NCBI RefSeq assembly: GCF_000496075.1
Contig: NZ_AWXZ01000044.1
Span: forward strand, 1 to 64,000
Reading direction: 5' to 3'
Source: Lutibaculum baratangense AMV1
GTDB lineage: Bacteria; Pseudomonadota; Alphaproteobacteria; Rhizobiales; Tepidamorphaceae
Length of the DNA: 64,000 bases
Made by a program: the position numbers and the translations under genes. How positions within the stretch are numbered: the first letter of the stretch is position 1; each line of letters opens with the position of its first letter. This document shows positions 713 to 33,909 of this stretch, piece by piece. Below the pieces are notes generated by a model. That model made no database searches. It had not been told where the DNA came from and saw only the letters and a program-made list of their open reading frames with translations.

Positions 713-1828
713 TCAGCCGCGCGCGAGGGCGACGTGATTGTCGAAGGCGAGATCGTGGCGTCGCGCCAGCAGCGTCTCGCCCGCCGTGAACTCGCGGATC
801 TCGCCGAGACCGTTCGTGCCGAGGAAGCCCGACGGCGCCGTCCCGGAGACGATGCCGCAGCTGTCTTCGAAATCGCGCGCGGCGACGAGTTCGCCCCGCA
901 GGTTCCAGACGAGAACCTTGCCGCCCCGCGGGCACGACGCGGCGACGAACTGCCCGTCTCGGCTCGTGGCCATGGCGCCGACATAGTTCATGAGGCTGTT
1001 CTGGATGTGATTGGGCGCGGCGAGCAGGCGCGGCGCTTCCTGCGGCCCGGCATAGCCGACGAGCGGCGGCCTGTCGGCCTCGGGCCCGACATACTGGCAG
1101 CCGAACCAGGATCGCCCGTCGGCGTCGAGCGAGACATGCCGGATCGACAGCTTGTGGACCTCCGGCGGCAGCGCGTGGCGCGCGATGAGGTCTCCGGAGC
1201 GCCAGTCGACGAAGGCGAGGTTCGCCTGCATGGAGTCGACGTTCAGCATCGTGCGGCCCGCGGCCGGATGGGTCTCGATGCCGCCGTTCCCGATGGCCAG
1301 CGTGCGGCCGTCCGGCATCAGGACGACCTCGTGCGGCCCGACCCCGTAGGACTCGATCTCGCCCAGGCGGGCATATCCGCCTCGGGCGTCGTAGATGCCG
1401 ATCGTGCCGCGCGCGTTGTCGTAGTCGTTCTCGGTCGCGAAGAGCAGCCGGCCGTCCGGGCTGAAGTCGCCGTGGCCGTAGAAGTGTCGGCCCTCGGGCG
1501 TGTGGAAGACCGTCGGCTCCGTCTCGCGCCTCAGGTCGATGGCGCAGGCGAATGTGCCGGGCCGGCGCGCGAAGGCGATCGCTCGCCTTCCGCCGGGCGA
1601 CACGCAGATGTCGTGGCCGCGGTCGGGCAGGGGAACGGTGCGGACGATGCCCTCTTCGGGGCGGAAGACGGCGACCGCGAAGCTGCCGTCCGGCTTCCGG
1701 CAGCCGCTGAGATAGAGCGGCTCGGCTCCTGCTGCCTCGGCGCGGCGGCCGAGCGCGCCGAACAGCATCAGCCCCGCGGCGCCCGCTCCCCGCAGGAAGG
1801 CGCGCCGTTCAATCGCCGTCGAGCGCAT
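713..1828 (-). CDS. DUF1513 family Tat-exported beta-propeller protein
   Basis: 371 aa. A twin-arginine motif (ERRAFLRGAG) followed by a hydrophobic stretch indicates Tat export to the periplasm. The remainder has the repeated blade pattern of YncE/DUF1513 propellers (for example GHDICVSPGGRRAIAFARR and SPDGRLLFATENDYD). The start overlaps the end of the upstream imelysin gene by 20 bases, so the two are probably translationally coupled. It is the last gene of the iron locus. The biochemical role of DUF1513 is not established; the context suggests a structural or redox partner in periplasmic iron handling. Confidence 0.88.
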   Translation of the reverse strand: MRSTAIERRAFLRGAGAAGLMLFGALGRRAEAAGAEPLYLSGCRKPDGSFAVAVFRPEEGIVRTVPLPDRGHDICVSPGGRRAIAFARRPGTFACAIDLRRETEPTVFHTPEGRHFYGHGDFSPDGRLLFATENDYDNARGTIGIYDARGGYARLGEIESYGVGPHEVVLMPDGRTLAIGNGGIETHPAAGRTMLNVDSMQANLAFVDWRSGDLIARHALPPEVHKLSIRHVSLDADGRSWFGCQYVGPEADRPPLVGYAGPQEAPRLLAAPNHIQNSLMNYVGAMATSRDGQFVAASCPRGGKVLVWNLRGELVAARDFEDSCGIVSGTAPSGFLGTNGLGEIREFTAGETLLARRHDLAFDNHVALARG

Positions 1829-2888
1829 TGAACCCCGCTTTCAATCCCGCCGCCGACATGAGCTGCTCGGAGACGAGGCTCCGGGCATTGTCGAGCGAAT
1901 AGAAAAGCGCCGTCAGGTCCCGCCGCCCGTCGGTGTCGACGACGGCTTCCTCGATGGGCTCGGCGATCCGGCCCGCCACGGCCCTCGCGTTCGCGATCTC
2001 GAAGCCGATCGAGCGCTCGAGCCATGACAGGTCCTTCGGCAAGATAGCCTCGATCCCGCCCGCCTGCAGCAGGGCGCCGGTCCCCCCGACCATATGGCCG
2101 ACATAGCCGAGCGTCGTGCCGCTTCGCCAGAAGGGCGCGGTCTTCGGACGTGCCGTCTCGACCGACTCTCCCATCGCCGGGCGGACGATCCGCTCCGCCG
2201 CGAGCTCGAGGCCCGTCGCGGCGCTCCCGATAAGGTCCCGGACGGGCTCGCTTGGCCCGCGGTAGAGCGGGTTGTCCGCTCCAGGGGCGGAGAACTCCGA
2301 CGCGAACGCACCGTCTTCCGCGAAAGCGACCTGGAGTTCCTGCGCGACCTGGTGGACGTTCTCGCCCATCGCCTGCGCATAGCGGCAACGGAAGCTCATG
2401 GGGAGCTCGGCCAGCGTCTCGGATCCGCTGCCGAACATCAGAAACTCCAGCGCGCCCAGGCCCTGCACGGCGACGCTCTTCTGCCTCAGCTCTGCCGGCA
2501 ACGTCGCCGCCGGGTCCTCCTCGGCCAGAACGCCCTGCACCTGTCTCAGCGTCACGCCCCGCGGGTCGGGCCAGAAGAACACGCGAGCCTGTCGGTCGTC
2601 CTGCCGCAGCGGGTCGAGCGCCAGGAAGGACAGGCCGGCCCAGGCCTCCGCGACCTTCCGGAACGAGGCCTGCGCCGTCTGGAGCGACGCCTCGCCCGGT
2701 GTCTCGCACAGGGTCGCGACATCCGCCGAAAGAGAGGCCGTCGCCGCCTCGAAATCGGCAGCCGCCGGGCGGACATAGCCTGCGAGTGCCCGGTCGGCGA
2801 AACCCTGCAGGGCCTCGCCACCCGGCTGAGCGTGAGCCGGGGAGGCGGCCATGACGGCCATCGCGAGGGCGGCGAGCGCGAACCGCAT
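1809..2888 (-). CDS. Imelysin family (M75) periplasmic protein, second copy, altered metal motif
   Basis: 359 aa with a Sec signal peptide (cut near AHA at residues 18-20) and a helical imelysin domain. In this family the GxHxxE motif is thought to bind metal. Here the aligned segment reads GLGALEFLMFG (Gly143, Gly145, Glu148), so the histidine is glycine. It follows the DUF1111 gene by 3 bases and overlaps DUF1513. It may have become a structural or haem/iron-partner subunit rather than a metal-binding copy. The family call is firm from the conserved EFLMFG block and context; the functional reading is inference. Confidence 0.87.
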   Translation of the reverse strand: MRFALAALAMAVMAASPAHAQPGGEALQGFADRALAGYVRPAAADFEAATASLSADVATLCETPGEASLQTAQASFRKVAEAWAGLSFLALDPLRQDDRQARVFFWPDPRGVTLRQVQGVLAEEDPAATLPAELRQKSVAVQGLGALEFLMFGSGSETLAELPMSFRCRYAQAMGENVHQVAQELQVAFAEDGAFASEFSAPGADNPLYRGPSEPVRDLIGSAATGLELAAERIVRPAMGESVETARPKTAPFWRSGTTLGYVGHMVGGTGALLQAGGIEAILPKDLSWLERSIGFEIANARAVAGRIAEPIEEAVVDTDGRRDLTALFYSLDNARSLVSEQLMSAAGLKAGFNALDGD

Positions 2889-2891
2889 GAT

Positions 2892-4412
2892 CTAGAGAGA
2901 CTCCAGGAACCGGATGAGGGCGGCGCGGTTGTCGGGCGTCATGGCCGCCACGGAATCACGGGTGGCCTCGGCCTCGCCGCCATGCCACAGCACGGCCTCG
3001 AGCAGGCTGCGGGCGCGCCCGTCGTGCAGGAACAGCGTGTGGCCGCTCACCGCCTGCGTCAAGCCGATGCCCCAGAGCGGCGGCGTGCGCCATTCGCGCC
3101 CCGAGGCGGCCCCTTGCGGCCGGCGGTCGGCGAGGCCGTCCCCCATGTCGTGCAGCAGCATGTCGGTGTAAGGCCAGATGAGCTGCCGGCGCAGCGCCAC
3201 CGGCACCTCGTCATCGTCGCGCGTGACGTATTTGGGATGGTGGCAGCCGACGCAGCCCGTCTGGTAGAAGAGCTCCTTGCCGCGCAGGACCTCGGGGTCT
3301 TCGACGTCGCGGCGCGCCGGCACGGCCAGGTGCCGGGAATAGAAGGTCACGAGCGCCAGCAGTTCCTCCGGCACCTCGTGCCCGTCGTAGTCCTGCCCGA
3401 CCGGCGCGTCGATGCAGGACGTCTGGGCTTCGGTGCAGTCGCCGTGGGGCTCCGGCACGTCCGGGTTGCCGAGCCCCATGTCGGTCACGAAGGCGAAGGC
3501 CGCCTGCTGGCGGACGGTCGGCTGGATCGCCTTCGAGCCGAAGCGCCCGAGGGCCGGCTCGCCGGTCGACACGTCGACATTCCAGTTCGGACGGCCGGAT
3601 ATCCCGTCTCCGTCCTCGTCGTCCGGGTCGGCGAGCGCGAGTATGTCGCCCTCGTGGACGAATTCCAGAAGGCCGAGCCCGATCATCTGCGGGGCGACCC
3701 TCGGCGAGATCATCGTGTCTGGGTGAAGCGGCCCGTAGCCCAGCTCGGCGATCTCGTAGCGCGGCACGCGCAGGCTCGCCGTCTCCCCGCCCGACAGCTG
3801 CACCGCCCGCTCGCCATACGTGACCACGACGCGCCCCTCGGCGGCGTGGCCGGCCGCCGCCAGGTCCTGAAGCTGCGAGCCGTAGGTCGGCTCCGGCACG
3901 ACGAGCTCCGAGACGGTCTGGGGGAACTCGGGCTCGCCCTCCGGCGCCGGCACGCTGAGGCCCAGCACGAAGGACTCCGCGCCGGCCGCCCCATCGCGGG
4001 GCGGCTGACCGCGCCCGTCCTTCAAATGGCAGTTCTGGCAGCCCCGGGAGTTGAACAGCGGACCGAGGCCGTCGGAGGCGGTCGTGGAGGAGGGGGCGGG
4101 CGTCCACAGCTTGCGGAAGACGCCGTTCCCGACCGCAAAGTCCGACCGCCCCTCGAATGGCAGGTTCGCCGAGAACTGGGAGAAGGCATCCCGGTCGAAG
4201 CGTTCGACCGTCGTCGCGCCGCCCTGGTTCACCTCGAAGGGCTCCGCCTTCGTGAAATCCCCGGTGGAAGCGGTGACGCCCGCGATGCGCGCCCGGTCCG
4301 CCTCGCTGAGATCCGCGCGATGGGCAAGCGGACCCTCCGAGGCCGCGTAGGCGAAGAGGGTCATGGCGGTCGAGACGCCGAAGCTCAGGGCGATGAGGCG
4401 GGCGGAGGTCAT
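2892..4412 (-). CDS. Di-haem cytochrome c oxidoreductase family protein (DUF1111)
   Basis: 506 aa. An N-terminal hydrophobic segment (about residues 5-24) exports it to the periplasm. There are two c-type haem sites: CQNCH at 125-129 and CVGCH at 387-391. The DUF1111 family is related to MauG/CCP-like di-haem proteins and is commonly found beside imelysin genes, where an electron-transfer or ferric-reduction role in iron uptake is suspected. It lies 52 bases after the first imelysin gene and 3 bases before the second. The aspartate-rich stretch near 262-272 (DPDDEDGDGISG) resembles a calcium site. Confidence 0.9.
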   Translation of the reverse strand: MTSARLIALSFGVSTAMTLFAYAASEGPLAHRADLSEADRARIAGVTASTGDFTKAEPFEVNQGGATTVERFDRDAFSQFSANLPFEGRSDFAVGNGVFRKLWTPAPSSTTASDGLGPLFNSRGCQNCHLKDGRGQPPRDGAAGAESFVLGLSVPAPEGEPEFPQTVSELVVPEPTYGSQLQDLAAAGHAAEGRVVVTYGERAVQLSGGETASLRVPRYEIAELGYGPLHPDTMISPRVAPQMIGLGLLEFVHEGDILALADPDDEDGDGISGRPNWNVDVSTGEPALGRFGSKAIQPTVRQQAAFAFVTDMGLGNPDVPEPHGDCTEAQTSCIDAPVGQDYDGHEVPEELLALVTFYSRHLAVPARRDVEDPEVLRGKELFYQTGCVGCHHPKYVTRDDDEVPVALRRQLIWPYTDMLLHDMGDGLADRRPQGAASGREWRTPPLWGIGLTQAVSGHTLFLHDGRARSLLEAVLWHGGEAEATRDSVAAMTPDNRAALIRFLESL

Positions 4413-4464
4413 GGCGGAAGACGCCTGTGGAGGGCTGGGCGCCGGAAGCGCCCGCCCAGGGTCT

Positions 4465-5736
4465 TTACTGGAAGACGGCGTTCGGATTGTCGAGGCTGTC
4501 GGACCCCTCGAGGTCGATCTGCTCCAGGTCGAGCGCCGCGATGGCCCGCTCCAGCGACCGGGTCTGCGCGATGAGCGCGTCGACGGCGTGCTGGACGACC
4601 TCGTTCCCCTCCTCGTTGCCCTCGCCGATCATCTGGTCATAGGCCTCGCCACCCTCGGCCCGCTCCCTGATGGCGTCCATCGCCGCCAGCGTCTCGTCGA
4701 GCTTGGCGAGAAGCTCGGCGTGGGTCTCGGGCTTTGCGGCCTCGACGAGATCCGCGGGCGCAGGCCCCTCGACCACCGAGCCGTCGGTGCGGACGTAGCG
4801 GCCGACATAGACGTTCCTGATGCCGAGGGCGTCGTAATAGTGCGAGTTGTGGGTGTTGTCGGAGAAGCAGTCGTGCTCCTCCTCGGGATCGTGCAGCATG
4901 AGCCCGAGCTTCATGCGCTCGCCGGCGAGCTCGCCATAGGAGAGCGACCCCATGCCGGTGAAGATGGCGCGAACACCGGCCTCAGGATCCTCCGTCACCG
5001 CCGCGCGCGCCTCGCCGCCCTCGGCCCACATCTCCGCCATCTCGCGGAGGTCGCTCACCAGAAGCTCCGTCGCCGCGGTCAGATACTGCGCGCGCCGGTC
5101 GCAGTTGCCGCCCGTGCAGCCGTCGCCCTGCACGTAGTCGGTATGCGGCCGGTCGCCGGCCCCGGCATCGGTGCCGTTGAGATCCTGGCCCCAGAGCAGG
5201 AACTCGACCGCGTGGTAGCCGGTCGCGACGTTCGCTTCCACGCCGCCCAGTTCCTGCAGCGTGCCCTCGAGCAGGTCCGCGTCGATCGTGGAGGCATCGA
5301 CCTCCCGCCCGCCGACCTTCAGCTGCGGGTTGGCGATGACGTTCGCGGCATAGGCCTCGTTCTGGTCCGACTCGGTCCCGTAGGACGCGTCGACATAGTC
5401 GATCAGCCCCTCGTCGAGGGGCCAGGCGTTCACCTTGCCCTCCCACTCGTCGACGAGGGGATTGCCGAAGCGGTAGACCTCCGTCTGCTGATAGGGCACC
5501 CGGGCGTCGATCCACGCCTGCCTCGCCGCCGCTAGCGTTTCCTCGCTCGGGTCCGCGACCAGTGCCGCCACGGCGTCCTTCAGCGTCTCGGCCGTGGTGA
5601 GCGAATCCTCGTAGCCGGCCTGCGCGATGTCGGCATAAGTCGCGGCCACCTCATCCAGTGCCGGCTGCGCATGAGCGGCCGTCGCGACGAGCATCGCCAA
5701 TCCCCCGGCGAGCACGTACCTGCCTGGTCCCGTCAT
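4465..5736 (-). CDS. irpA: Imelysin family iron-regulated periplasmic protein (IrpA-like)
   Basis: 423 aa, with a signal peptide ending about residue 23 (ATAAHA). The imelysin domain keeps the GxHxxE metal motif intact (Gly173-Tyr-His175-Ala-Val-Glu178) and the family hallmark HDCFSDNTH. A GGGGAGACC ribosome site precedes the ATG. It is the first gene of the locus, and a palindromic iron-box-like element sits 15-31 bases upstream. IrpA-type proteins are periplasmic or outer-membrane iron-uptake factors. No EfeU-type permease is encoded with it, so how iron would reach the cytoplasm is not shown here. Confidence 0.9.
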   Translation of the reverse strand: MTGPGRYVLAGGLAMLVATAAHAQPALDEVAATYADIAQAGYEDSLTTAETLKDAVAALVADPSEETLAAARQAWIDARVPYQQTEVYRFGNPLVDEWEGKVNAWPLDEGLIDYVDASYGTESDQNEAYAANVIANPQLKVGGREVDASTIDADLLEGTLQELGGVEANVATGYHAVEFLLWGQDLNGTDAGAGDRPHTDYVQGDGCTGGNCDRRAQYLTAATELLVSDLREMAEMWAEGGEARAAVTEDPEAGVRAIFTGMGSLSYGELAGERMKLGLMLHDPEEEHDCFSDNTHNSHYYDALGIRNVYVGRYVRTDGSVVEGPAPADLVEAAKPETHAELLAKLDETLAAMDAIRERAEGGEAYDQMIGEGNEEGNEVVQHAVDALIAQTRSLERAIAALDLEQIDLEGSDSLDNPNAVFQ

Positions 5737-5750
5737 CGCGGTCTCCCCGT

Positions 5751-5767
5751 TTTCGAAGGGTTCAAAA
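5751..5767 (-). promoter_or_regulatory. Candidate Irr/ICE-type iron box upstream of the imelysin operon
   Basis: The plus strand reads TTTCGAA-GGG-TTCAAAA, an interrupted palindrome. Each half matches 6 of 7 positions of the rhizobial ICE pattern TTTAGAA-N3-TTCTAAA. It ends 15 bases before the irpA start, where a bound protein could block initiation. A second imperfect repeat (aactacac...gtatagtt, 5766-5793) lies just upstream. This is pattern evidence only; no Irr gene is in the window. Confidence 0.45.
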
Positions 5768-5842
5768 CTACACTTTTCTCTGCAGGTATAGTTGATCCCT
5801 CATCCCCGGAGCGATTGCAAGCCTCGATCTGCAGGCGCGGGA

Positions 5843-6247
5843 TCACCGGGAAGCGTCGGTCGCTCCACCGCCGCAAGGCCTCAGTGTCACGGGATCCGCG
5901 TCGACGATCTCGCCGAGGGGACGGCAGGCGCGGCGAGGCTCGCCGTCCCCGGGCGTGCAGAGCGTCCAGTCCCCGACCCCCGGCTCCGTGGCGCGCCGCA
6001 GCACGATCTCCGGCCGCGGCTCCTCGGGATGCCAGACATACCAGCCATCGACGAGACGGGCCTCGGGCGGCGGCTCCATGCCGGCGCCCGAGCCCTTGAT
6101 GCGCGAGGTCTCGAGCACGAGGCGATCGCCTTCGACCCGCCACTCCTCCTGCCAGGGAACGCGCTCGACGGTGTGCGTCCAGGAAAGGGCGAAGCCGGCG
6201 ACCGCCAGCGTGACGATCTTGCCGGCCCCGAGGACGCAGAGCGGCAT
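5843..6247 (-). CDS. DUF1850 family small protein of TAXI-TRAP locus
   Basis: 134 aa starting MPLCVLGAGKIVTLAVAG; its start codon shares one base with the permease stop (TGATG), implying translational coupling. The N-terminus is hydrophobic (signal or single membrane segment, about residues 8-24). The rest is a beta-rich domain with PWQEEWRVEGDRLVLETSRI, typical of DUF1850. DUF1850 proteins are regularly encoded with TAXI-type TRAP fused permeases, but their role is not known. Longer open frames extending upstream of this start merely shadow the permease gene. Confidence 0.85.
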   Translation of the reverse strand: MPLCVLGAGKIVTLAVAGFALSWTHTVERVPWQEEWRVEGDRLVLETSRIKGSGAGMEPPPEARLVDGWYVWHPEEPRPEIVLRRATEPGVGDWTLCTPGDGEPRRACRPLGEIVDADPVTLRPCGGGATDASR

Positions 6248-8349
6248 CAGGCCGGCAGCGGCTCGGTTCGCGTGCGGCGGATGCGCCACCAGACCCAGCC
6301 GATGAAGGCGATGCAGGCCGCGAAGCCGATCTCGTCGGTGACGGGGAGGGCGACGATGAGGGTCGAGGCGGCGAGGAAGGCCCAGATCCGCTCCCACCAG
6401 CGCAACCTCACGCCGAAGAAGCCGATGGAGGCCGCGCCCCACAGGCCGATCGCGAGCAGCGCCTTTCCGATATTGTAGGCGACGGCGGGCCAGAAGCCGA
6501 TCGCGTCGGCGAGCGGCCCGCCCGGCTGGAGCATCAGAGTGGGCGCGTAGACCGCCATGTAGGGCACGACGAAGCCGGCGATGGCGACGCGCATCGCCTG
6601 CACGCCGATCTTCATGCCGCCTTCTTTCGCGATCGGCGCGGCCGCGAAGGCGGCCAGCGCGACCGGCGGCGTGAGGTCCGCCATGATGCCGAAATAGAAG
6701 ACGAACATGTGGCTCACGATCAGCGGGACGCCGAGATCGAGCAGGGCGGGGCCGGCGATCGAGGAGGTGATGATGTAGTTCGGGATCGTCGGGATCCCCA
6801 TCCCGAGGATCAGGCAGGTGATCATCGTCAGGAAAAGCGAGAAAAAGAGGGAGCTCTCGCCGACGCTCACGATCACGCGGGTGAAGGTCGTGGCGGTGCC
6901 GGTCAGGGCGAGGATGCCGATGAGGACACCCACGAGAGCGCAGGCGACGCCGACGGGGAGGGCGTTCTTCGCGCCGAGCGCGAGGCTCTCGATCGTCAGC
7001 CGCAACGTCTCGCGGCCGCCGCGGTTGACGAGGTTGAACGCCATCAGCGCGACGATCAGCAGGACGACGGGGGTAATGCCGTAGGACTGGAACGTCCAGG
7101 CGGCGCCGATGCCCAGCGCGATCCAGAAGACGATGCGCAGGGGAACCGGGCCGAGGATGCCCGCGATCGGCGTGCCGAGGATCAGGAGCAGGGTGAAGGC
7201 GAGGCCGATCGTGCCGGCGAAGAGCGGCGTGTAGCCGGAGAACAGGAGATAGACGAGGGCGACGAGCGGCAGGAGGAGATACCAGCGGTCGACGAGGGCC
7301 CTCCAGGCGCTCGGCAGCTCGTCGCGCGGCAGGCCCTGCAGGCCGAGGCGGCCGGCCTCGAGATGCACCATCAGGAAGACGGTGGCGAAGTAGAGCATGG
7401 CCGGGACGATCGCCGCCCACACGACCGAGACGTACGGCACGCCGATCGTCTCGGCCATGATGAAGGCGACGGCGCCCATCACGGGCGGCATGATCTGGCC
7501 GCCCATCGAGGCGGTCGCCTCGACGCCGCCGGCGAAGGCCGGACGGAAGCCGAAGCGCTTCATCAGCGGAATCGTGAACTGGCCGGTGGTCACGACGTTC
7601 GCGACGCCCGAGCCGTTGATCGTGCCCATGAGGCCGGAGGAGACGACGGAGACCTTCGCCGGCCCGCCCTTCGTGTGCCCGACCGTTCCCATGGCGAGGT
7701 CGGTGAAGAGCTGGATCATCCCGGCCCGCTCGAGGAACGAGCCGAACAGGATGAACAGGAAGATATATGTCGACGAGACGTAGATCGGCGTTCCGAATAT
7801 CCCCTCGGTGCCGAGGAACAGGATGTCGACGATCTGGTCGTAGGCATAAGGCCGGTGGATGAGTGGCGGCGGCAGGAGATGGCCGTAAAGGCCGTAGAGA
7901 ACGAAGACGCCGCAGATGATCGGCAGCGCCCACCCCATCATCATGTAGCCCGCCAGGAACACGAGCCCGATCGCCACGGTGCCGAAAATGATGTCGAGCT
8001 CGGTCGGGCGGGCCTGCAGGATGATCCGGTGATAGCCCTCCCAGTGGTAGAGCCCGATGGAGAAGCCGACGATCCCGAGAATGAGGAAGGCCGCGAAGCG
8101 CGCCTTGTTATGTGGCTTCTGGTTCGCCAGGAGCCCGAACAGGAGCAGGAGCAGGAAGCCGACATGGACCGCCCGCGTGATCTGGCTCGCGATCGGCGAA
8201 TAGGCGGCGGTCCACAGCTGGAACAGGGAGAACGCGATCGCCACGCCCATCAGCACGCGGGCGAAGGGCCCGGTGCCCCAGCCATACTCGTGCTGGATCG
8301 GCTCCTCGTCGGGCGGAAGGCTGCCGTTCGCGGGGGCGGACGCGCTCAT
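6247..8349 (-). CDS. TRAP transporter fused permease (DctQ-DctM fusion, TAXI type)
   Basis: 700 aa and strongly hydrophobic throughout, with many membrane spans. The N-terminal part (about residues 30-160) corresponds to the small DctQ-like subunit. The C-terminal part carries the large-permease signatures FGSFLERAGMIQLFTDLA and VSSGLMGTINGSGVANVVTTGQFTIP, typical of the 4TM/12TM fused permeases that work with TAXI binding proteins. It probably imports an organic acid with a cation gradient; the substrate cannot be told from sequence. It lies downstream of the binding-protein gene (gap about 130 bases) and is coupled to the DUF1850 gene. Confidence 0.93.
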   Translation of the reverse strand: MSASAPANGSLPPDEEPIQHEYGWGTGPFARVLMGVAIAFSLFQLWTAAYSPIASQITRAVHVGFLLLLLFGLLANQKPHNKARFAAFLILGIVGFSIGLYHWEGYHRIILQARPTELDIIFGTVAIGLVFLAGYMMMGWALPIICGVFVLYGLYGHLLPPPLIHRPYAYDQIVDILFLGTEGIFGTPIYVSSTYIFLFILFGSFLERAGMIQLFTDLAMGTVGHTKGGPAKVSVVSSGLMGTINGSGVANVVTTGQFTIPLMKRFGFRPAFAGGVEATASMGGQIMPPVMGAVAFIMAETIGVPYVSVVWAAIVPAMLYFATVFLMVHLEAGRLGLQGLPRDELPSAWRALVDRWYLLLPLVALVYLLFSGYTPLFAGTIGLAFTLLLILGTPIAGILGPVPLRIVFWIALGIGAAWTFQSYGITPVVLLIVALMAFNLVNRGGRETLRLTIESLALGAKNALPVGVACALVGVLIGILALTGTATTFTRVIVSVGESSLFFSLFLTMITCLILGMGIPTIPNYIITSSIAGPALLDLGVPLIVSHMFVFYFGIMADLTPPVALAAFAAAPIAKEGGMKIGVQAMRVAIAGFVVPYMAVYAPTLMLQPGGPLADAIGFWPAVAYNIGKALLAIGLWGAASIGFFGVRLRWWERIWAFLAASTLIVALPVTDEIGFAACIAFIGWVWWRIRRTRTEPLPA

Positions 8350-8480
8350 GCCAGGTCTCCGGATGGATGCGTGGGACAGGGATCCAGAACGCCGTGTGAG
8401 GATCGGGAGGACATGGGCCCTCCCGATCCGGCCGGCACGTGGCGCGCGCCGCTGAGGCGCCGGCCAGTGAGAAGCGGGCT

Positions 8481-9437
8481 CTAGAGAGCGCCGGCTTCCT
8501 TGTAGTAGCGCTCGGCTCCGGGGTGCAGCGGAACGGGCGCGCCTTCGGCGGCCGTCTCGATGCTGATCGCGTTGGCCGCGGCGTGAGCGGCCTTCAGCTG
8601 GTCGAGATTCTCGAAGATCGCCTTCGTCATCGCATAGGCGAGGTCGTCGGAGACGTCGGAATGCGTGACCAGATAGTTGACGATTGCGACGGTCTGCACA
8701 TCCTCGTCCTGGCCCTCATAGGTCCCCGCCGGGATCGGCTCCGAGACGAAAGGTGCGCCGAGCGTCTCCGCGATCTCCTGCGGCACCGCCACGACCTTGA
8801 TCGGAATGGCGGACGCGAGATCGCGGATCGAGGCGACGCCGAGACCGGCCGACTGGAGCGTCGCGTCGATCTGCCGGTTCTTCATCAGTTCCACGGATTC
8901 CGCGAAGGGCAGGTACTCGACCTTGCCGAGGTCGTCGTACGACATGCCGGCGGCCTGGAAGATCTGCCGGGCGTTGAGCTCGGTGCCCGACCGGGGCGCG
9001 CCGACGGAGAGGGCCTTGCCCTTGAGATCATCGAGGCTCTCGATGCCAGACTCCGCCGAGGCGACGATCTGGACGAAGTTCGGGTAGATCGCGGCGATCA
9101 CCCGCAGCTTGTCGAGCGGCTGTGCGAAACCGGCTTCCTCGTCGCCTTCGCCGGCCGCCTTGACCGAATCGCCGAGCGAGAAGGCGATCTCGCCGCGGCC
9201 GTCCTGCAGGAGGTTCAGGTTCTCGACGGATGCCTTCGTCGACTGCACGGAGGGGCGCGCGCCCTCGATGTTGTCGGCGAACACCTTCTCGAGCGCGACG
9301 CCCAGCGGATAGTAGACGCCCGCCTGGCCGCCCGTCAGGATGTTGATGAACTCCTGTGCGCCCGCCGCGGCTGGCGTAAGCGCCATGCTGGCCGCCGCGG
9401 CACCTGCCACTAGCATCCGCCTTGCACTGAATGTCAC
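8481..9437 (-). CDS. TAXI family TRAP transporter solute-binding protein
   Basis: The gene has a GTG start at 9437, chosen because GGGAGG sits 7 bases upstream; the longer frame from 9467 begins with TTG and has no such site. The product is about 318 aa with a signal peptide (ARRMLVAGAAAASMALTP, cut near AGA). The mature start FINILTGGQAGVYYPLG is the diagnostic TAXI glycine-rich loop, and SVGAPRSGTELNARQIF is also typical. It should bind the substrate in the periplasm and deliver it to the fused permease. Ligand unknown; glutamate and related acids are bound by studied relatives. Confidence 0.92.
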   Translation of the reverse strand: MTFSARRMLVAGAAAASMALTPAAAGAQEFINILTGGQAGVYYPLGVALEKVFADNIEGARPSVQSTKASVENLNLLQDGRGEIAFSLGDSVKAAGEGDEEAGFAQPLDKLRVIAAIYPNFVQIVASAESGIESLDDLKGKALSVGAPRSGTELNARQIFQAAGMSYDDLGKVEYLPFAESVELMKNRQIDATLQSAGLGVASIRDLASAIPIKVVAVPQEIAETLGAPFVSEPIPAGTYEGQDEDVQTVAIVNYLVTHSDVSDDLAYAMTKAIFENLDQLKAAHAAANAISIETAAEGAPVPLHPGAERYYKEAGAL

Positions 9438-9573
9438 TGGCTTTCCTCCCGTTTTCTTTGGCAGCAAGAATCCGCCCCTTGGGGGCGGTCGATGGGCGGC
9501 AGTCTAGGTTGACGCCGCCGGAAATTCCAATAGCCGAAAGACCAAGCGGGAGATGAGGCGCGAAATGGCGGAA

Positions 9574-9600
9574 GGGCCGCGCCCTTTCGGTGCGCGGCCC
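9574..9600 (-). terminator. Hairpin after bfr
   Basis: A perfect 9-base stem (gggccgcgc / gcgcggccc) with a 9-base loop lies 36 bases past the bfr stop. There is no U-tract, so termination efficiency is uncertain. Confidence 0.45.
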
Positions 9601-9635
9601 CTCCGGAATGCCTTGATGACGCGATGGCCGGTCGT

Positions 9636-10124
9636 TCAGGCCTCGGGCTGGTCGGCCGAGCCGGCGTTGAGGAGCATGTAGCGCTCGACGCCGATCTTCT
9701 CGAGGAGCTCGAGCTGCGTCTCGAGGAAGTCGATATGACCCTCCTCGTCGGCGATCAACTCCTCGAACAGGTCCTTGGAGACGTAGTCCTTGGCTTGCTC
9801 GCACACGTCGCGGAACTTCGTGTAGGCGCGCTGCGCCTCGTACTCGCCGGCGAGATCGCCCTCGAGCACTTCCTTGATGTTCTGTCCCACACGCAGAGGG
9901 GCGATCGTCTGCAGGTTGGGGTGCCCCTCGAGGAATATGATCCGCTGCACCAGCTTGTCGGCGTGGTGCATCTCCTCGATGGATTCCGCCCGCTCCTTCG
10001 CGGCCACCTTCGCGAGGCCCCAGTCCTCCGTCAGACGGTAGTGCAGCCAGTACTGGTTGACCGCCCCCAGCTCCATCTTCAGGGCCTCGTTGAGGCAGTC
10101 GATCACTTTGGGATCGCCCTTCAT
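9636..10124 (-). CDS. bfr: Bacterioferritin
   Basis: 162 aa and collinear with E. coli Bfr. It oxidises ferrous iron and stores it as a mineral in a 24-mer cytoplasmic shell. The ferroxidase ligands Glu18, Glu51 and His54 (in EEMHHAD) are visible, with the later pair in [12 protein letters not shown]; the methionine that ligates the inter-subunit haem (in EEM) is conserved. A strong AGGAGGAGG ribosome site precedes the ATG, and an iron-box-like palindrome lies 31-47 bases upstream. The ferredoxin partner gene bfd lies directly upstream on the same strand. Confidence 0.97.
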
Positions 10125-10154
10125 GTTCCTCCTCCTGTACAGGTCGCCGGGTTG

Positions 10155-10171
10155 TTTCGAATTACTCTAAT
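10155..10171 (-). promoter_or_regulatory. Candidate Irr/ICE-type iron box upstream of bfr
   Basis: The minus strand reads ATTAGAG-TAA-TTCGAAA, matching the ICE pattern TTTAGAA-N3-TTCTAAA at 5/7 and 6/7 half-site positions. It shares the TTTCGAA half with the box ahead of irpA. bfr is a known Irr target in rhizobia, which supports the assignment, but binding is not shown. Confidence 0.45.
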
Positions 10172-10227
10172 CTGGAGACCTAGCACAAGTTCCGGCGCGT
10201 GGGGAGGGCATGTTTCAGCCGCATGGC

Positions 10228-10479
10228 TCACGCGACCTTGGAAAGGCCGGGGGCGGGCCCGTCGCATGCGGGCAGGCCTTCTTCCCGATGGGTGCGCTCC
10301 ACGCGCTCCACGAGAATCTGGACGACGAGAGGAAAGCAGTTGCAACACCGGCCGCGCTTCCCGAGGCGGTGATAGATGCGGCCCGGGGTGACGACGCAGT
10401 AGGGATCGGCGGCCAGCAGCCGGTCGACCACCTCCTCGATCTCTTTGCGCGTGATGACGTTGCAGTGGCAGACGATCAT
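10228..10479 (-). CDS. bfd: Bacterioferritin-associated ferredoxin
   Basis: 83 aa starting MIVCHCNVITRKEIEEVVD. The [2Fe-2S] ligands are Cys4 and Cys6 (CHC) plus a second pair in GRCCNCF (Cys45/46 and Cys48). The spacing between the pairs is several residues longer than in E. coli Bfd. Bfd passes electrons to bacterioferritin to release stored iron, and the gene sits directly upstream of bfr on the same strand, 103 bases apart. The start at 10479 is the only ATG matching the family N-terminus. Confidence 0.93.
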   Translation of the reverse strand: MIVCHCNVITRKEIEEVVDRLLAADPYCVVTPGRIYHRLGKRGRCCNCFPLVVQILVERVERTHREEGLPACDGPAPGLSKVA

Positions 10480-10521
10480 GGCGGCAGGCGCTTGCTGTGA
10501 GGCTGAATAAGCTGGAGTTCG

Positions 10522-10557
10522 TGCAGGTGGATGAGTGCATAGCACGCAAAACCTGCA
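10522..10557. promoter_or_regulatory. Nested inverted repeat upstream of bfd
   Basis: Outer arms TGCAGGT / ACCTGCA enclose inner arms GTGC / GCAC with nearly the same centre. It lies 43-78 bases upstream of the bfd start; on the minus strand a TATGCA -10-like hexamer falls inside it. It could be an operator or an RNA leader hairpin. It does not match the iron boxes seen upstream of bfr and irpA. Confidence 0.35.
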
Positions 10558-10631
10558 AGCAACATACAGATTAATGCGGATCTGCCGCCAGTGCCACTCA
10601 CCTGCGGCGATTTCCCGCGCCCCGCGGGTTG

Positions 10632-12161
10632 TTAGCGGCCGCGGCCGAACCAGCCGGAGAAGACACGCGAAAGCCCGCGCCGCAGGATTTCCGGCCTCTC
10701 GGGGTCGACGAGTTCGCCTTCGGCCAGGGCGGTGTCGATCAGGTCGTTCTCGCCGTTCGGCATCGGGACAAGGCACGGCGCGCCGTCCCGACGCAGCCGG
10801 TCGACGGCGCCGGCGATCGAGCCCGCGTCGCGGATCGCTGCGCGCACCTCCTCCAACCCGCAGCCCATATGCTCGGCGATGAGATCGTCGCGGATGGAAA
10901 GGATCTCCTCCCGGATCTCGGCCTCTCGCGCCGTGCCGGGACACGCTTCGATGGCCACGTCGCACTCGCTGTCGAAGCCCATCGACCTGTTGTTCAGGTT
11001 CGACGAGCCGATCCTCAGGAGGCGATCGTCGACGAACAGGATCTTCGCATGCACGTAGATCGGCGTCCCTGCGGCGTTGGTGGGGTAGTACGCCGAGAAG
11101 CGCCGGTACGGGTCCCGGGAGCGGAGATGGGAGAGAAGTCGCGTGCGGGCCGCGTCCATCGTCTTGATCTCGAGCCAGCCATCGGCTTCGGCCGGGAGCA
11201 CGATGACGATCTCGGGCCCGTCGGGCTCCTGCAGGCGGTCGGCGAGCGCCTCCGCGATCCGCCGCGACGCGAGATATTGCGACTGGATGAAGAGGGTCTT
11301 CCGCGCTGCGGCGATGGCCGCGAAGGTCAGCGCGGCGACCTCGTATGCGGGCTCGGCCTCGTCGCGCTCCGGCCAGCTCCGCGCGAGCCCGATGTCGATG
11401 TCGCGGAAGGTCGGCTCGAGCTTCTCCGGCCACAGCTTCCGGTCCGACTCGAGTGGCTTGATCCAGTTGCCCGTCGCGCGCCCCCAGCGTTCCCTCGCGA
11501 GGTCGCCCAGGGCCGCAGCGGCGGGACCGTCGACCGCCACGGCGGCGTCGTGCCATGGCTTGGACAGGCCGCCCCGGGGGATGCGCCGCCGCTCGTCCTG
11601 CTCGATGTGCTCCCGGGTGTCCCACCGGCCGACGGTCATGTCGATGCCGCCGCAGAAGGCCAGGCAATCGTCGATGACGGCGACCTTCTGATGATGCGCC
11701 GCCGACGGGGGATGCTTGGCGTCCAGCCGGAAGTGGATCCGGCGGCTCGTGATCCAGTCGAGGATGAACAGCGGCGTCGTCCCGCGCGGCAGGTTCTTGA
11801 GGAAGCCGAGGTTCCATTTCAGGACGAAGATCTCGAGCCGCTTGCGGCGCCGACTGAGCCAGGTCAGGAACCGGCCGAGAGCGTTCGGCCCCTCCAGCGT
11901 CTTCTGTCCCGGCTCGAACTCTATACGCGTGTCGAAGTCCCAGCCGATCAGGAATATCGAACGCTCCGCGTTCAACATCGCGGCCTTCGCGTGCCGGAAG
12001 TACTCGGCCGCGTCGATGATCACCGCCAACTTGTCGGCCCGCTCGATGCGCCAGCACGTCTGGCCTTGAACGAGGATCTGCTCCCGCGCCCCTGCCGGCG
12101 CCGGGGTGGCTTCGCCCGCCCGCTCGTCCCGCGCGGGACGCTCTCGCGCCTGCATCTCCAT
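10632..12161 (-). CDS. Phospholipase D family protein (cardiolipin synthase-like)
   Basis: I place the start at the ATG at 12161, which has AAGGAG seven bases upstream; the frame is open to 12422 but that extension looks non-coding. The product is about 509 aa with two HKD catalytic motifs, HHQKVAVIDD and VHAKILFVDD, each followed by the GG/GS-x-N-type element (CGGIDMT, GSSNLNNRS). This marks a phosphatidyltransferase/phospholipase D enzyme acting on phospholipids. There are no clear membrane segments, unlike classical ClsA. Substrate specificity cannot be decided. It is transcribed divergently from the PRC-barrel gene. Confidence 0.85.
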   Translation of the reverse strand: MEMQARERPARDERAGEATPAPAGAREQILVQGQTCWRIERADKLAVIIDAAEYFRHAKAAMLNAERSIFLIGWDFDTRIEFEPGQKTLEGPNALGRFLTWLSRRRKRLEIFVLKWNLGFLKNLPRGTTPLFILDWITSRRIHFRLDAKHPPSAAHHQKVAVIDDCLAFCGGIDMTVGRWDTREHIEQDERRRIPRGGLSKPWHDAAVAVDGPAAAALGDLARERWGRATGNWIKPLESDRKLWPEKLEPTFRDIDIGLARSWPERDEAEPAYEVAALTFAAIAAARKTLFIQSQYLASRRIAEALADRLQEPDGPEIVIVLPAEADGWLEIKTMDAARTRLLSHLRSRDPYRRFSAYYPTNAAGTPIYVHAKILFVDDRLLRIGSSNLNNRSMGFDSECDVAIEACPGTAREAEIREEILSIRDDLIAEHMGCGLEEVRAAIRDAGSIAGAVDRLRRDGAPCLVPMPNGENDLIDTALAEGELVDPERPEILRRGLSRVFSGWFGRGR

Positions 12162-32320: not shown

Positions 32321-32381
32321 GGCGCTTGAACCCCCAGATTTGAATCCTTCAAAAAAAGTGCCACTATCGGGTTCCCGAGGC

Positions 32382-32418: not shown

Positions 32419-32435
32419 TTTAGAATTCTTCCAGG
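32419..32435 (+). promoter_or_regulatory. Possible ICE-like half-palindrome at the catalase start site
   Basis: TTTAGAA-TTC-TTCCAGG matches the first half of the rhizobial ICE box perfectly (7/7), but the second half only 4/7. It lies between the promoter and the start codon and overlaps the ribosome site. Weaker than the bfr and irpA boxes. Confidence 0.25.
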
Positions 32436-32445
32436 GAGAGGGTCG

Positions 32446-33909
32446 ATGTCGAAGCCCACCATGACGACCGCGAGCGGAGCGCCGGTCGCCGACAACCAGA
32501 ACTCGCAGACCGCCGGTCCGCGTGGCCCCGTCCTGATGCAGGACTTCCACCTCCTCGAGAAGCTCGCCCACCAGAACCGCGAGCGCATCCCCGAGAGGAC
32601 CGTGCACGCCAAGGGATCGGGCGCCTACGGCAAGCTCACGATCACGAACGACATCTCGAAATATTCCTGCGCCAGCATCTTCTCGAAGGTCGGCAACGAG
32701 TGCGAGGCGTTCCTGCGCTTCTCGACGGTCGCCGGCGAGCGCGGCGCGGCGGACGCGGAGCGCGACGTGCGCGGCTTCGCCCTGCGGTTCTACACGGATG
32801 CGGGCAACTGGGACATCGTCGGCAACAACACGCCCGTGTTCTTCATCCGCGATCCGCTGAAGTTCCCCGATTTCATCCACACGCAGAAGCGCCATCCGAA
32901 GACCAACCTGCGCTCCGCCACTGCGATGTGGGACTTCTGGTCGCTGAGCCCCGAGAGCCTCCATCAGGTGACGATCCTGATGTCGGATCGCGGCCTGCCG
33001 CAGACCTATCGCCACATCCACGGCTTCGGCTCGCACACCTATTCGTTCTGGAACAAGGACGGCGAGCGCTTCTGGGTGAAGTTCCACTTCAAGTCCATGC
33101 AGGGCATCCGGAACTGGACGAACGATGAGGCCCACGACGTCGTCGGCGCCGATCGGGAGTCGGCCCAGCGCGACCTCTTCGAGTCGATCGAGCAGGGCGA
33201 CTATCCGCGCTGGAAGTTCTGCGTGCAGGTCATGCCGGAGGCCGATGCCGACAAGCACTGGTACAACCCGTTCGACCTGACGAAGGTCTGGCCGCACGGC
33301 GACTATCCGCTGATCGAGGTCGGCGTCCTCGAGCTGAACCGCAATCCCGAGAACTACTTCGCCGAGGTCGAGCAGGCGGGCCTGACGCCGGCTAACGTGA
33401 TCCCGGGTGTCGGTCACTCGCCCGACAAGATGCTGCAGGCACGCATCTTCTCCTACGCCGACGCCCATCGCTACCGTCTCGGGATCAACCACCACCAGAT
33501 CCCGGTGAACCAGCCGAAGGCGACGTCGGCACATACCTACCACATGGACGGATCGATGCGGCTTCAGGGCCCGGCGAACCCGAACCACTACTACGAGCCG
33601 AACACGATGGGCGGCCCCGCCCAGGACGAGGCCTTCCGCGAGCCGCCGCTGAAGATCTCCGGTGACGCCGACCGCTACAACCACCGCGACGGCAACGACG
33701 ACTACCGCCAGCCGGGGGATCTCTTCCGCCTGATGAGCGAGGAGCAGAAGGCGCAGCTCTTCAGGAACATCGCCGGCGCCATGCAGGGCGTGCCGGAGGA
33801 GATCATCCGCCGCCAGCTCGCCCACTTCTACAAGGCCGACCCGGCCTATGGAGAGGGCGTGGCCAAGGCCGTGGGCGTTGAGATGAGCGCCGCGGAAGCC
33901 GCGGAGTAA
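32446..33909 (+). CDS. katA: Monofunctional haem catalase
   Basis: 487 aa, small-subunit (clade 3) length. The distal His54 lies in [13 protein letters not shown], the asparagine in [12 protein letters not shown], and the proximal haem tyrosine in [14 protein letters not shown]. Decomposes hydrogen peroxide in the cytoplasm; NADPH-binding residues are likely. It has its own promoter and terminator. Together with the manganese catalase at 19097 the organism has two unrelated catalases in 15 kb. Confidence 0.96.

Follow-up and report, generated by a model that had tools for sequence, protein, structure and literature searches.

The subject of this report is a four-gene locus on the minus strand of a 64,000-nucleotide stretch of the Lutibaculum baratangense AMV1 genome (the window; contig NZ_AWXZ01000044.1, positions 1 to 64,000). 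In gene order, it encodes an ICMP-type imelysin, a di-haem protein of the DHOR/DUF1111 family, an IPPA-type imelysin and a DUF1513 protein. The locus is probably an alphaproteobacterial copy of a widespread ICMP-DHOR-IPPA-DUF1513 operon of an iron-tied type, working by the mechanism set out below. The tie to iron is drawn from the protein families and their motifs, a gene order kept in 65 of 80 loci, linkage to bfr and bfd, the presence of Irr with an Irr-box (iron control element, ICE)-like site, induction in R. sphaeroides, pairs of TonB receptors and FecCD permeases, and the predicted folds. Anatomy, conservation and fold predictions are documented here, and from them we infer the function of the locus; iron capture as such is a proposal.

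All four open reading frames (ORFs) lie at the coordinates first noted. The first encodes the ICMP-type imelysin (4465-5736; M75, Pfam PF09375, E 4e-89), followed by DHOR/DUF1111 (2892-4412; PF06537, E 4.4e-88), the IPPA-type imelysin (1809-2888; PF09375, E 1.9e-34) and DUF1513 with a Tat-type signal (713-1828; PF07433, E 1.8e-103). The preliminary description of the window had placed four genes for exported proteins in a row, and the ORFs and Pfam matches bear out their coordinates and families. Export signals are present on all four proteins, the signal peptides being judged by eye, and the twin-arginine start RRAFL in the DUF1513 translation agrees with the Tat export proposed for it. The genes are separated by 52 nt and 3 nt and then overlap by 20 nt, in keeping with the overlaps and 3-base gap described earlier for the last three; from the overlap, coupling of the IPPA-type imelysin and DUF1513 genes is plausible.

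The first imelysin had been called IrpA-like. It is indeed an imelysin, but it is closer to P. aeruginosa ICMP (7xrx, the best structure match, E 3.9e-120) than to IrpA (4ecg, far weaker at E 2.4e-10). Its translation carries the motif GYHAVE, and the corresponding pattern GxHxxE was found in 79 of 80 homologues. No lipobox was seen in it by eye. The second protein in the M75 family, also recognised in the preliminary description, matches IPPA (3pf0, E 7.7e-7) and has the motif GLGALE, a GxxxxE in which the histidine is lost. The pattern was found in 60 of 69 IPPA-type homologues, and the position was never a histidine in those 60. When both imelysins were scanned at E 0.001, only M75 was detected and no cupredoxin domain. 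A first scan of a genome-contig database with the second imelysin as query confirmed no relative.

The four-gene order is conserved beyond chance. It was scored in 80 named loci, a capped list of the top 80 among 582 confirmed ICMP-profile matches ranked by closeness to the ICMP of the window, so that the count does not describe a random sample. The order was found on one strand in 65 of them, and in 63 of these 65 the DHOR, IPPA and DUF1513 genes lay within 150 nt of each other. Among the close loci (20 fetched loci and the window), 18 of 21 had all four genes; the remaining three were L025 (no DHOR), L035 (a contig of 4463 bases that lacks ICMP) and L039 (lacking both ICMP and DHOR), the genome of the last having an ICMP-like match on another contig. 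The conservation of gene order for which the preliminary description had called is thus present in both sets. Across 41 whole genomes, M75 was found in 25 and DUF1513 in 21, the latter never without the former; in a draw from the class, DUF1513 was found in 18 of 142 genomes, 17 of them over the cut-off. Protein alignments were made for ICMP (A1; the window and 11 of 17 relatives' proteins), for DUF1513 (A3; the window and 30 of 69 homologues) and for DHOR (A4; the window and 28 of 78 homologues, two of 30 being left out), with every second named locus and a length filter applied for A3 and A4.

Genes of iron storage accompany the operon. Upstream of it in the window, on the same strand, lie a bacterioferritin gene, bfr (9636-10124, minus strand; TIGR00754, E 3.5e-56, over the cut-off), and a gene for a Bfd-like [2Fe-2S] protein (10228-10479, minus strand; PF04324, E 1.1e-4, its 22.9 bits falling short of the cut-off of 26; start set by eye). 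In 20 of the 65 ordered loci bfr is inside the operon, and a Bfd-like ORF, named by eye, is inside it in 12 loci. In wild-type R. sphaeroides, iron limitation raised irpA 4.05-fold, bfd 2.71-fold and bfr 1.99-fold, and the three genes (RSP_1548-1546) are neighbours by locus number. From the name of irpA and its bfd and bfr neighbours we infer that it may head the same operon type. For iron-dependent expression of the window operon, these data and the Irr-box-like site are indirect support only.

A permease-less double-imelysin operon is not new, since P. aeruginosa PA4370-PA4373 was so described in 2011. In that report (PMC3143127), it is a Fur-regulated operon with two imelysins and one DUF1111 protein, called an EfeB homologue; EfeU is missing from such operons, and imelysin (ICMP), IrpA, IPPA and EfeO are told apart as families. 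The window resembles PA4370-PA4373 in that a single operon, devoid of EfeU, holds an ICMP-type imelysin with GxHxxE and an IPPA-type imelysin with GxxxxE flanking a DUF1111 di-haem protein. It differs in the bfd-like and bfr genes nearby and in its Irr-box-like site. PA4373 is presumably a DUF1513 protein. Passages found by searching the literature for PA4373, DUF1513, COG3490 and PF07433 gave no function for PA4373. P. aeruginosa ICMP is reported in the outer membrane (PMC3143127), whereas the lipobox is lacking, by eye, from the ICMP-type imelysin of the window.

The locus also shares with the EfeUOB and EfeUOB-M systems an M75 imelysin domain and an extracytoplasmic haem protein with a link to iron. 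It differs from them in that the window genome lacks FTR1/EfeU and the window imelysins lack the cupredoxin domain. The haem proteins differ as well: EfeB is placed in the DyP superfamily (PMC9174327), whereas the fold predicted for DHOR is BCCP/MauG-like. DHOR should therefore not be called EfeB, and the equation of DUF1111 with EfeB is unsupported. No DyP-type EfeB was found at the locus, where the haem protein is PF06537; no search for a DyP gene was made elsewhere in the genome.

A site resembling the Irr box lies directly upstream of the operon. An Irr gene is present in the genome (NF045678, scoring 211.7 bits where the cut-off is 150), and so are genes for two further Fur-family proteins, one Fur-like and one Zur-like, both under the cut-offs of their best models. 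For the ICE consensus, which we take to be TTTAGAANNNTTCTAAA, the palindrome at 5751-5767 directly upstream of the ICMP start has 2 mismatches; the motif was applied after this palindrome had been spotted by eye. Only two sites in the 4.3 Mb genome have at most 2 mismatches, the other being upstream of a cysteine-desulfurase-like gene. With up to 3 mismatches allowed, the genome yields 14 sites, while reversing the pattern yields 7. The window holds four of the 14 (expected 0.2, Poisson P 7e-5; 0.03 expected from shuffles): the one before ICMP, a weaker one with 3 mismatches between the bfd-like gene and bfr (10155-10171), and two before a catalase-like gene. The last two sites (32338-32354 and 32419-32435, 3 mismatches) precede the catalase-like gene at 32446-33909, beside cytochrome bd genes. 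Among the 80 named loci, a site with at most 2 mismatches was found before ICMP in 17, 8 of them perfect; the reversed pattern occurred in 1 of 80, and 50 control palindromes averaged 0.2. An Irr gene in the genome and an ICE-like site ahead of this operon are two features of an Irr regulon; the box is putative and might serve either repression or activation at low iron. Only two Irr boxes, one of them at mbfA, are predicted for R. sphaeroides (PMC3413700), a point of difference from the window. A promoter scan of 5600-6300 found none.

The preliminary description held that no permease is present and that the module would rely on an unlinked one. The first statement needs qualification, as a fused TAXI/TRAP permease gene lies close by at 6247-8349, on the same strand as the operon and followed by DUF1850. 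With the TRAP and TAXI proteins as queries, tblastn at E 1e-8 gave no match around the operon in the 20 relative loci or the 80 named loci; the permease is therefore probably unrelated to the operon, and this neighbour was discarded as a partner. (At L119 a different TRAP-like set, recognised by eye, stands behind DHOR.) EfeU is indeed missing: FTR1 had no match in the window genome, and it was found in 0 of 21 genomes with DUF1513 and in 4 of the 20 that lack it (Fisher P 0.048 in one out of three related tests). EfeU was thus excluded as the unlinked permease. FeoB is likewise absent from the window genome, and from 20 of the 21 DUF1513 genomes with that one included, while present in 5 of the 20 others, a difference that is not significant (P 0.09). 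Up to 6 kb from the core genes, the neighbour clusters occurring in at least 6 of the 80 loci, named by eye, include no apparent iron permease. The search for a co-occurring permease advised earlier thus gave FTR1 in 0 of 21 DUF1513 genomes and FeoB in 1 of 21. FecCD matches occurred in 37 of the 41 genomes, weak ones counted. In the window genome, three of the five TonB receptor matches over the cut-off have a FecCD permease match within 2.5 kb. The idea of an unlinked permease is narrowed by the absence of EfeU and FeoB from this genome.

The di-haem protein was correctly recognised: it has a PF06537 domain and two CxxCH motifs, and two such motifs are present in all 78 homologues (78/78). 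Its structural model is of middling confidence (pLDDT 78). The model aligns with BCCP/MauG entries at VIA Z 10 to 14, the next rows falling to Z about 3; among the matches are hydrazine synthase gamma (Z 13.8) and 6e1c (Z 13.2), a MauG-like protein linked to copper homeostasis. Foldseek returned no match for the model at E 0.001, and the DHOR sequence had no helpful match among solved structures. From the two CxxCH motifs and the common fold, DHOR is predicted to be a protein of the bacterial cytochrome c peroxidase (BCCP)/MauG-like fold.

The DUF1513 protein is modelled as a propeller (pLDDT 90, pTM 0.86), counted here as seven-bladed. Most of the match titles listed by Foldseek and VIA name a propeller protein, a WD40 protein or a complex containing one. 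The model aligns with hydrazine synthase beta (Z 29.8) and with nitrous oxide reductase (Z up to 28.7 over 305 residues, rmsd 3.0-3.1), and many unrelated propellers, designed and WD40 ones included, score like nitrous oxide reductase. The DUF1513 profile, in contrast, had no sequence match to either enzyme at E 1, although a search with the single sequence placed hydrazine synthase beta first (E 0.0029). The relation to NosZ is accordingly a fold match only, and membership is not claimed. A match of the profile to YopM in the PDB (E 8e-7, 36 positions) was judged a spurious short repeat match.

Five of the 12 histidines of the window DUF1513 (72, 119, 166, 231 and 365) are conserved in 90 of 90 aligned sequences. 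By the strand list of the model, they occupy five innermost strands, each in its own blade, and Tyr282, conserved in 89 of 90, is at the start of the innermost strand of a sixth blade. All five conserved histidines but only 7 of 29 other conserved residues are on inner strands (hypergeometric P 6.5e-5), a value that serves as a guide only because the strands were assigned by us after the histidine positions had been seen, the fifth being extended from 285 to 281. Seven hub histidines hold the CuZ cluster of nitrous oxide reductase, and the match listing for the DUF1513 model shows His-to-Ala mutants of that enzyme at seven positions. The conserved inner-strand histidines are likely to form a metal site, the hub geometry being presumed. 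MauG acts on the propeller of methylamine dehydrogenase. A bolder proposal is possible, if doubtful: DUF1513 would represent a novel type of periplasmic metal protein, exported by Tat as a folded seven-bladed propeller, in which the five histidines and the tyrosine, one per blade, ligate iron, copper or a mixed cluster at the hub in a CuZ-like manner; the BCCP/MauG-like DHOR would work on it, the imelysins would deliver or receive the metal, and the operon would be a periplasmic machine for metal oxidoreduction, more than a collection of binding proteins.

The mechanism that goes with the iron-tied operon is more general. In the periplasm, the two imelysins would bind or pass on iron (or some other metal), the di-haem enzyme of BCCP/MauG-like fold would set the redox state of the metal or modify a partner, and the DUF1513 propeller would carry a metal site in its histidine-lined hub. 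Metal would enter through unlinked transporters, for example the TonB receptor and FecCD ABC systems of the genome, and linkage to bfd and bfr would couple the operon to the cytoplasmic iron store.

Several observations weigh against this assignment. The order is broken in 15 of the 80 loci: nine have ICMP and DHOR only, one has ICMP with bfr, one has ICMP alone, two have the remaining three genes before ICMP, one has the last two swapped and one has three inverted. Two of these, L096 and L102, may be truncated, their contigs being 10.8 and 9.0 kb long. Where the last two genes are missing (eleven loci), no DUF1513 was detected even at E 0.1, and the IPPA-profile matches were the ICMP genes themselves only. 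PIBO and IPPA showed no specific binding of ferric ion or haem by thermofluor (PMC3143127), and the text of a paper on the Caulobacter iron response (PMC3751524) contains no mention of imelysin, irpA or DUF1111. With regard to regulation, one control palindrome reached 10 of 80 loci at up to 2 mismatches and one reached 16 of 80 at up to 3. The ICE matches fall largely in related genera (Mesorhizobium, Agrobacterium) and are therefore not independent. Near ICMP, a site with no more than 2 mismatches is present in only 2 of the 18 close loci, L026 and the window, that of L026 lying past the called start, and ICE as a family-wide feature was dismissed on this count. In every species studied up to 2012, Irr is said to act as a repressor when iron is depleted (PMC3413700). 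A box at the start might therefore stand for expression at high iron, contrary to uptake; the iron response of R. sphaeroides irpA is present also without Irr. The periplasmic iron capture and redox module of the preliminary description is therefore retained in part: the order is kept and the permease is not EfeU, but the arrangement had been known since 2011 and the binding results for PIBO and IPPA speak against it.

The main rival to the iron-tied operon attributes to the locus a protection against peroxide and excess iron, not import. DHOR would be a peroxidase, the imelysins and the propeller would buffer metal, and Irr would repress at low iron. The BCCP/MauG-like fold of DHOR is consistent with this and the position of the Irr-like box also fits. 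The other ICE-like sites precede bfr and the catalase-like and cysteine-desulfurase-like genes, which are genes of iron use or storage, and bfd is called OxyR-dependent in R. sphaeroides. The induction of irpA by iron limitation in wild-type R. sphaeroides and the Fur regulation stated for the PA4370 operon (PMC3143127) argue in the other direction, and protection appears unlikely. That the locus handles copper or another metal instead of iron is improbable. Nitrous oxide reductase is among the fold matches of DUF1513, 6e1c is among those of DHOR, and EfeM, an M75-only protein, prefers copper, iron and zinc (PMC9174327); a shared fold, however, shows no function, and the iron response of the likely homologue irpA, the bfr and bfd linkage and the Irr-box-like site before ICMP favour iron. 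It is very improbable that both imelysins act as peptidases in a locus for the breakdown of peptides or proteins. The original description of P. aeruginosa ICMP was that of an insulin-cleaving zinc peptidase, and GxHxxE is kept in nearly all first imelysins, but PIBO and IPPA lack overall structural similarity to known peptidases (both statements from PMC3143127), the second imelysin lacks the histidine, and bfr and bfd co-location and the irpA response point to iron.

Other features were seen around the operon. Upstream of ICMP, 9 of the 20 relative loci and 14 of the 80 named loci encode a protein of about 170-190 aa that is rich in Cys in some members (for example L028:6186-6764, with nine more ORFs in relatives); the one member scanned had no Pfam match, and no copy was found in the window. 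The protein may have an accessory or sensor role. At L030 (about 8004-12135) other genes stand between ICMP and DHOR, one of them ApbE-type flavin transferase-like by eye. Downstream of the operon, 15 of the 80 named loci have a TspO/MBR-like membrane protein, named by eye (for example L124:14016-14468). Positions 1-400 of the window are G+C-rich, repeated-looking DNA with a recurring unit at the window start, by eye.

To the known arrangement the present analysis adds the Irr-box-like site, the presence of bfr inside the operon, the DUF1513 propeller with its five invariant histidines and the BCCP/MauG-like fold of DHOR. Because EfeU and FeoB are absent here and rare in genomes with the locus, the search for an inner-membrane partner points to other systems. 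Such operons are spread through the Proteobacteria sampled, and their iron step is without a defined chemistry. The conserved inner-strand histidines of DUF1513, beside a BCCP/MauG-like enzyme, make an uncharacterised protein concretely and cheaply testable.

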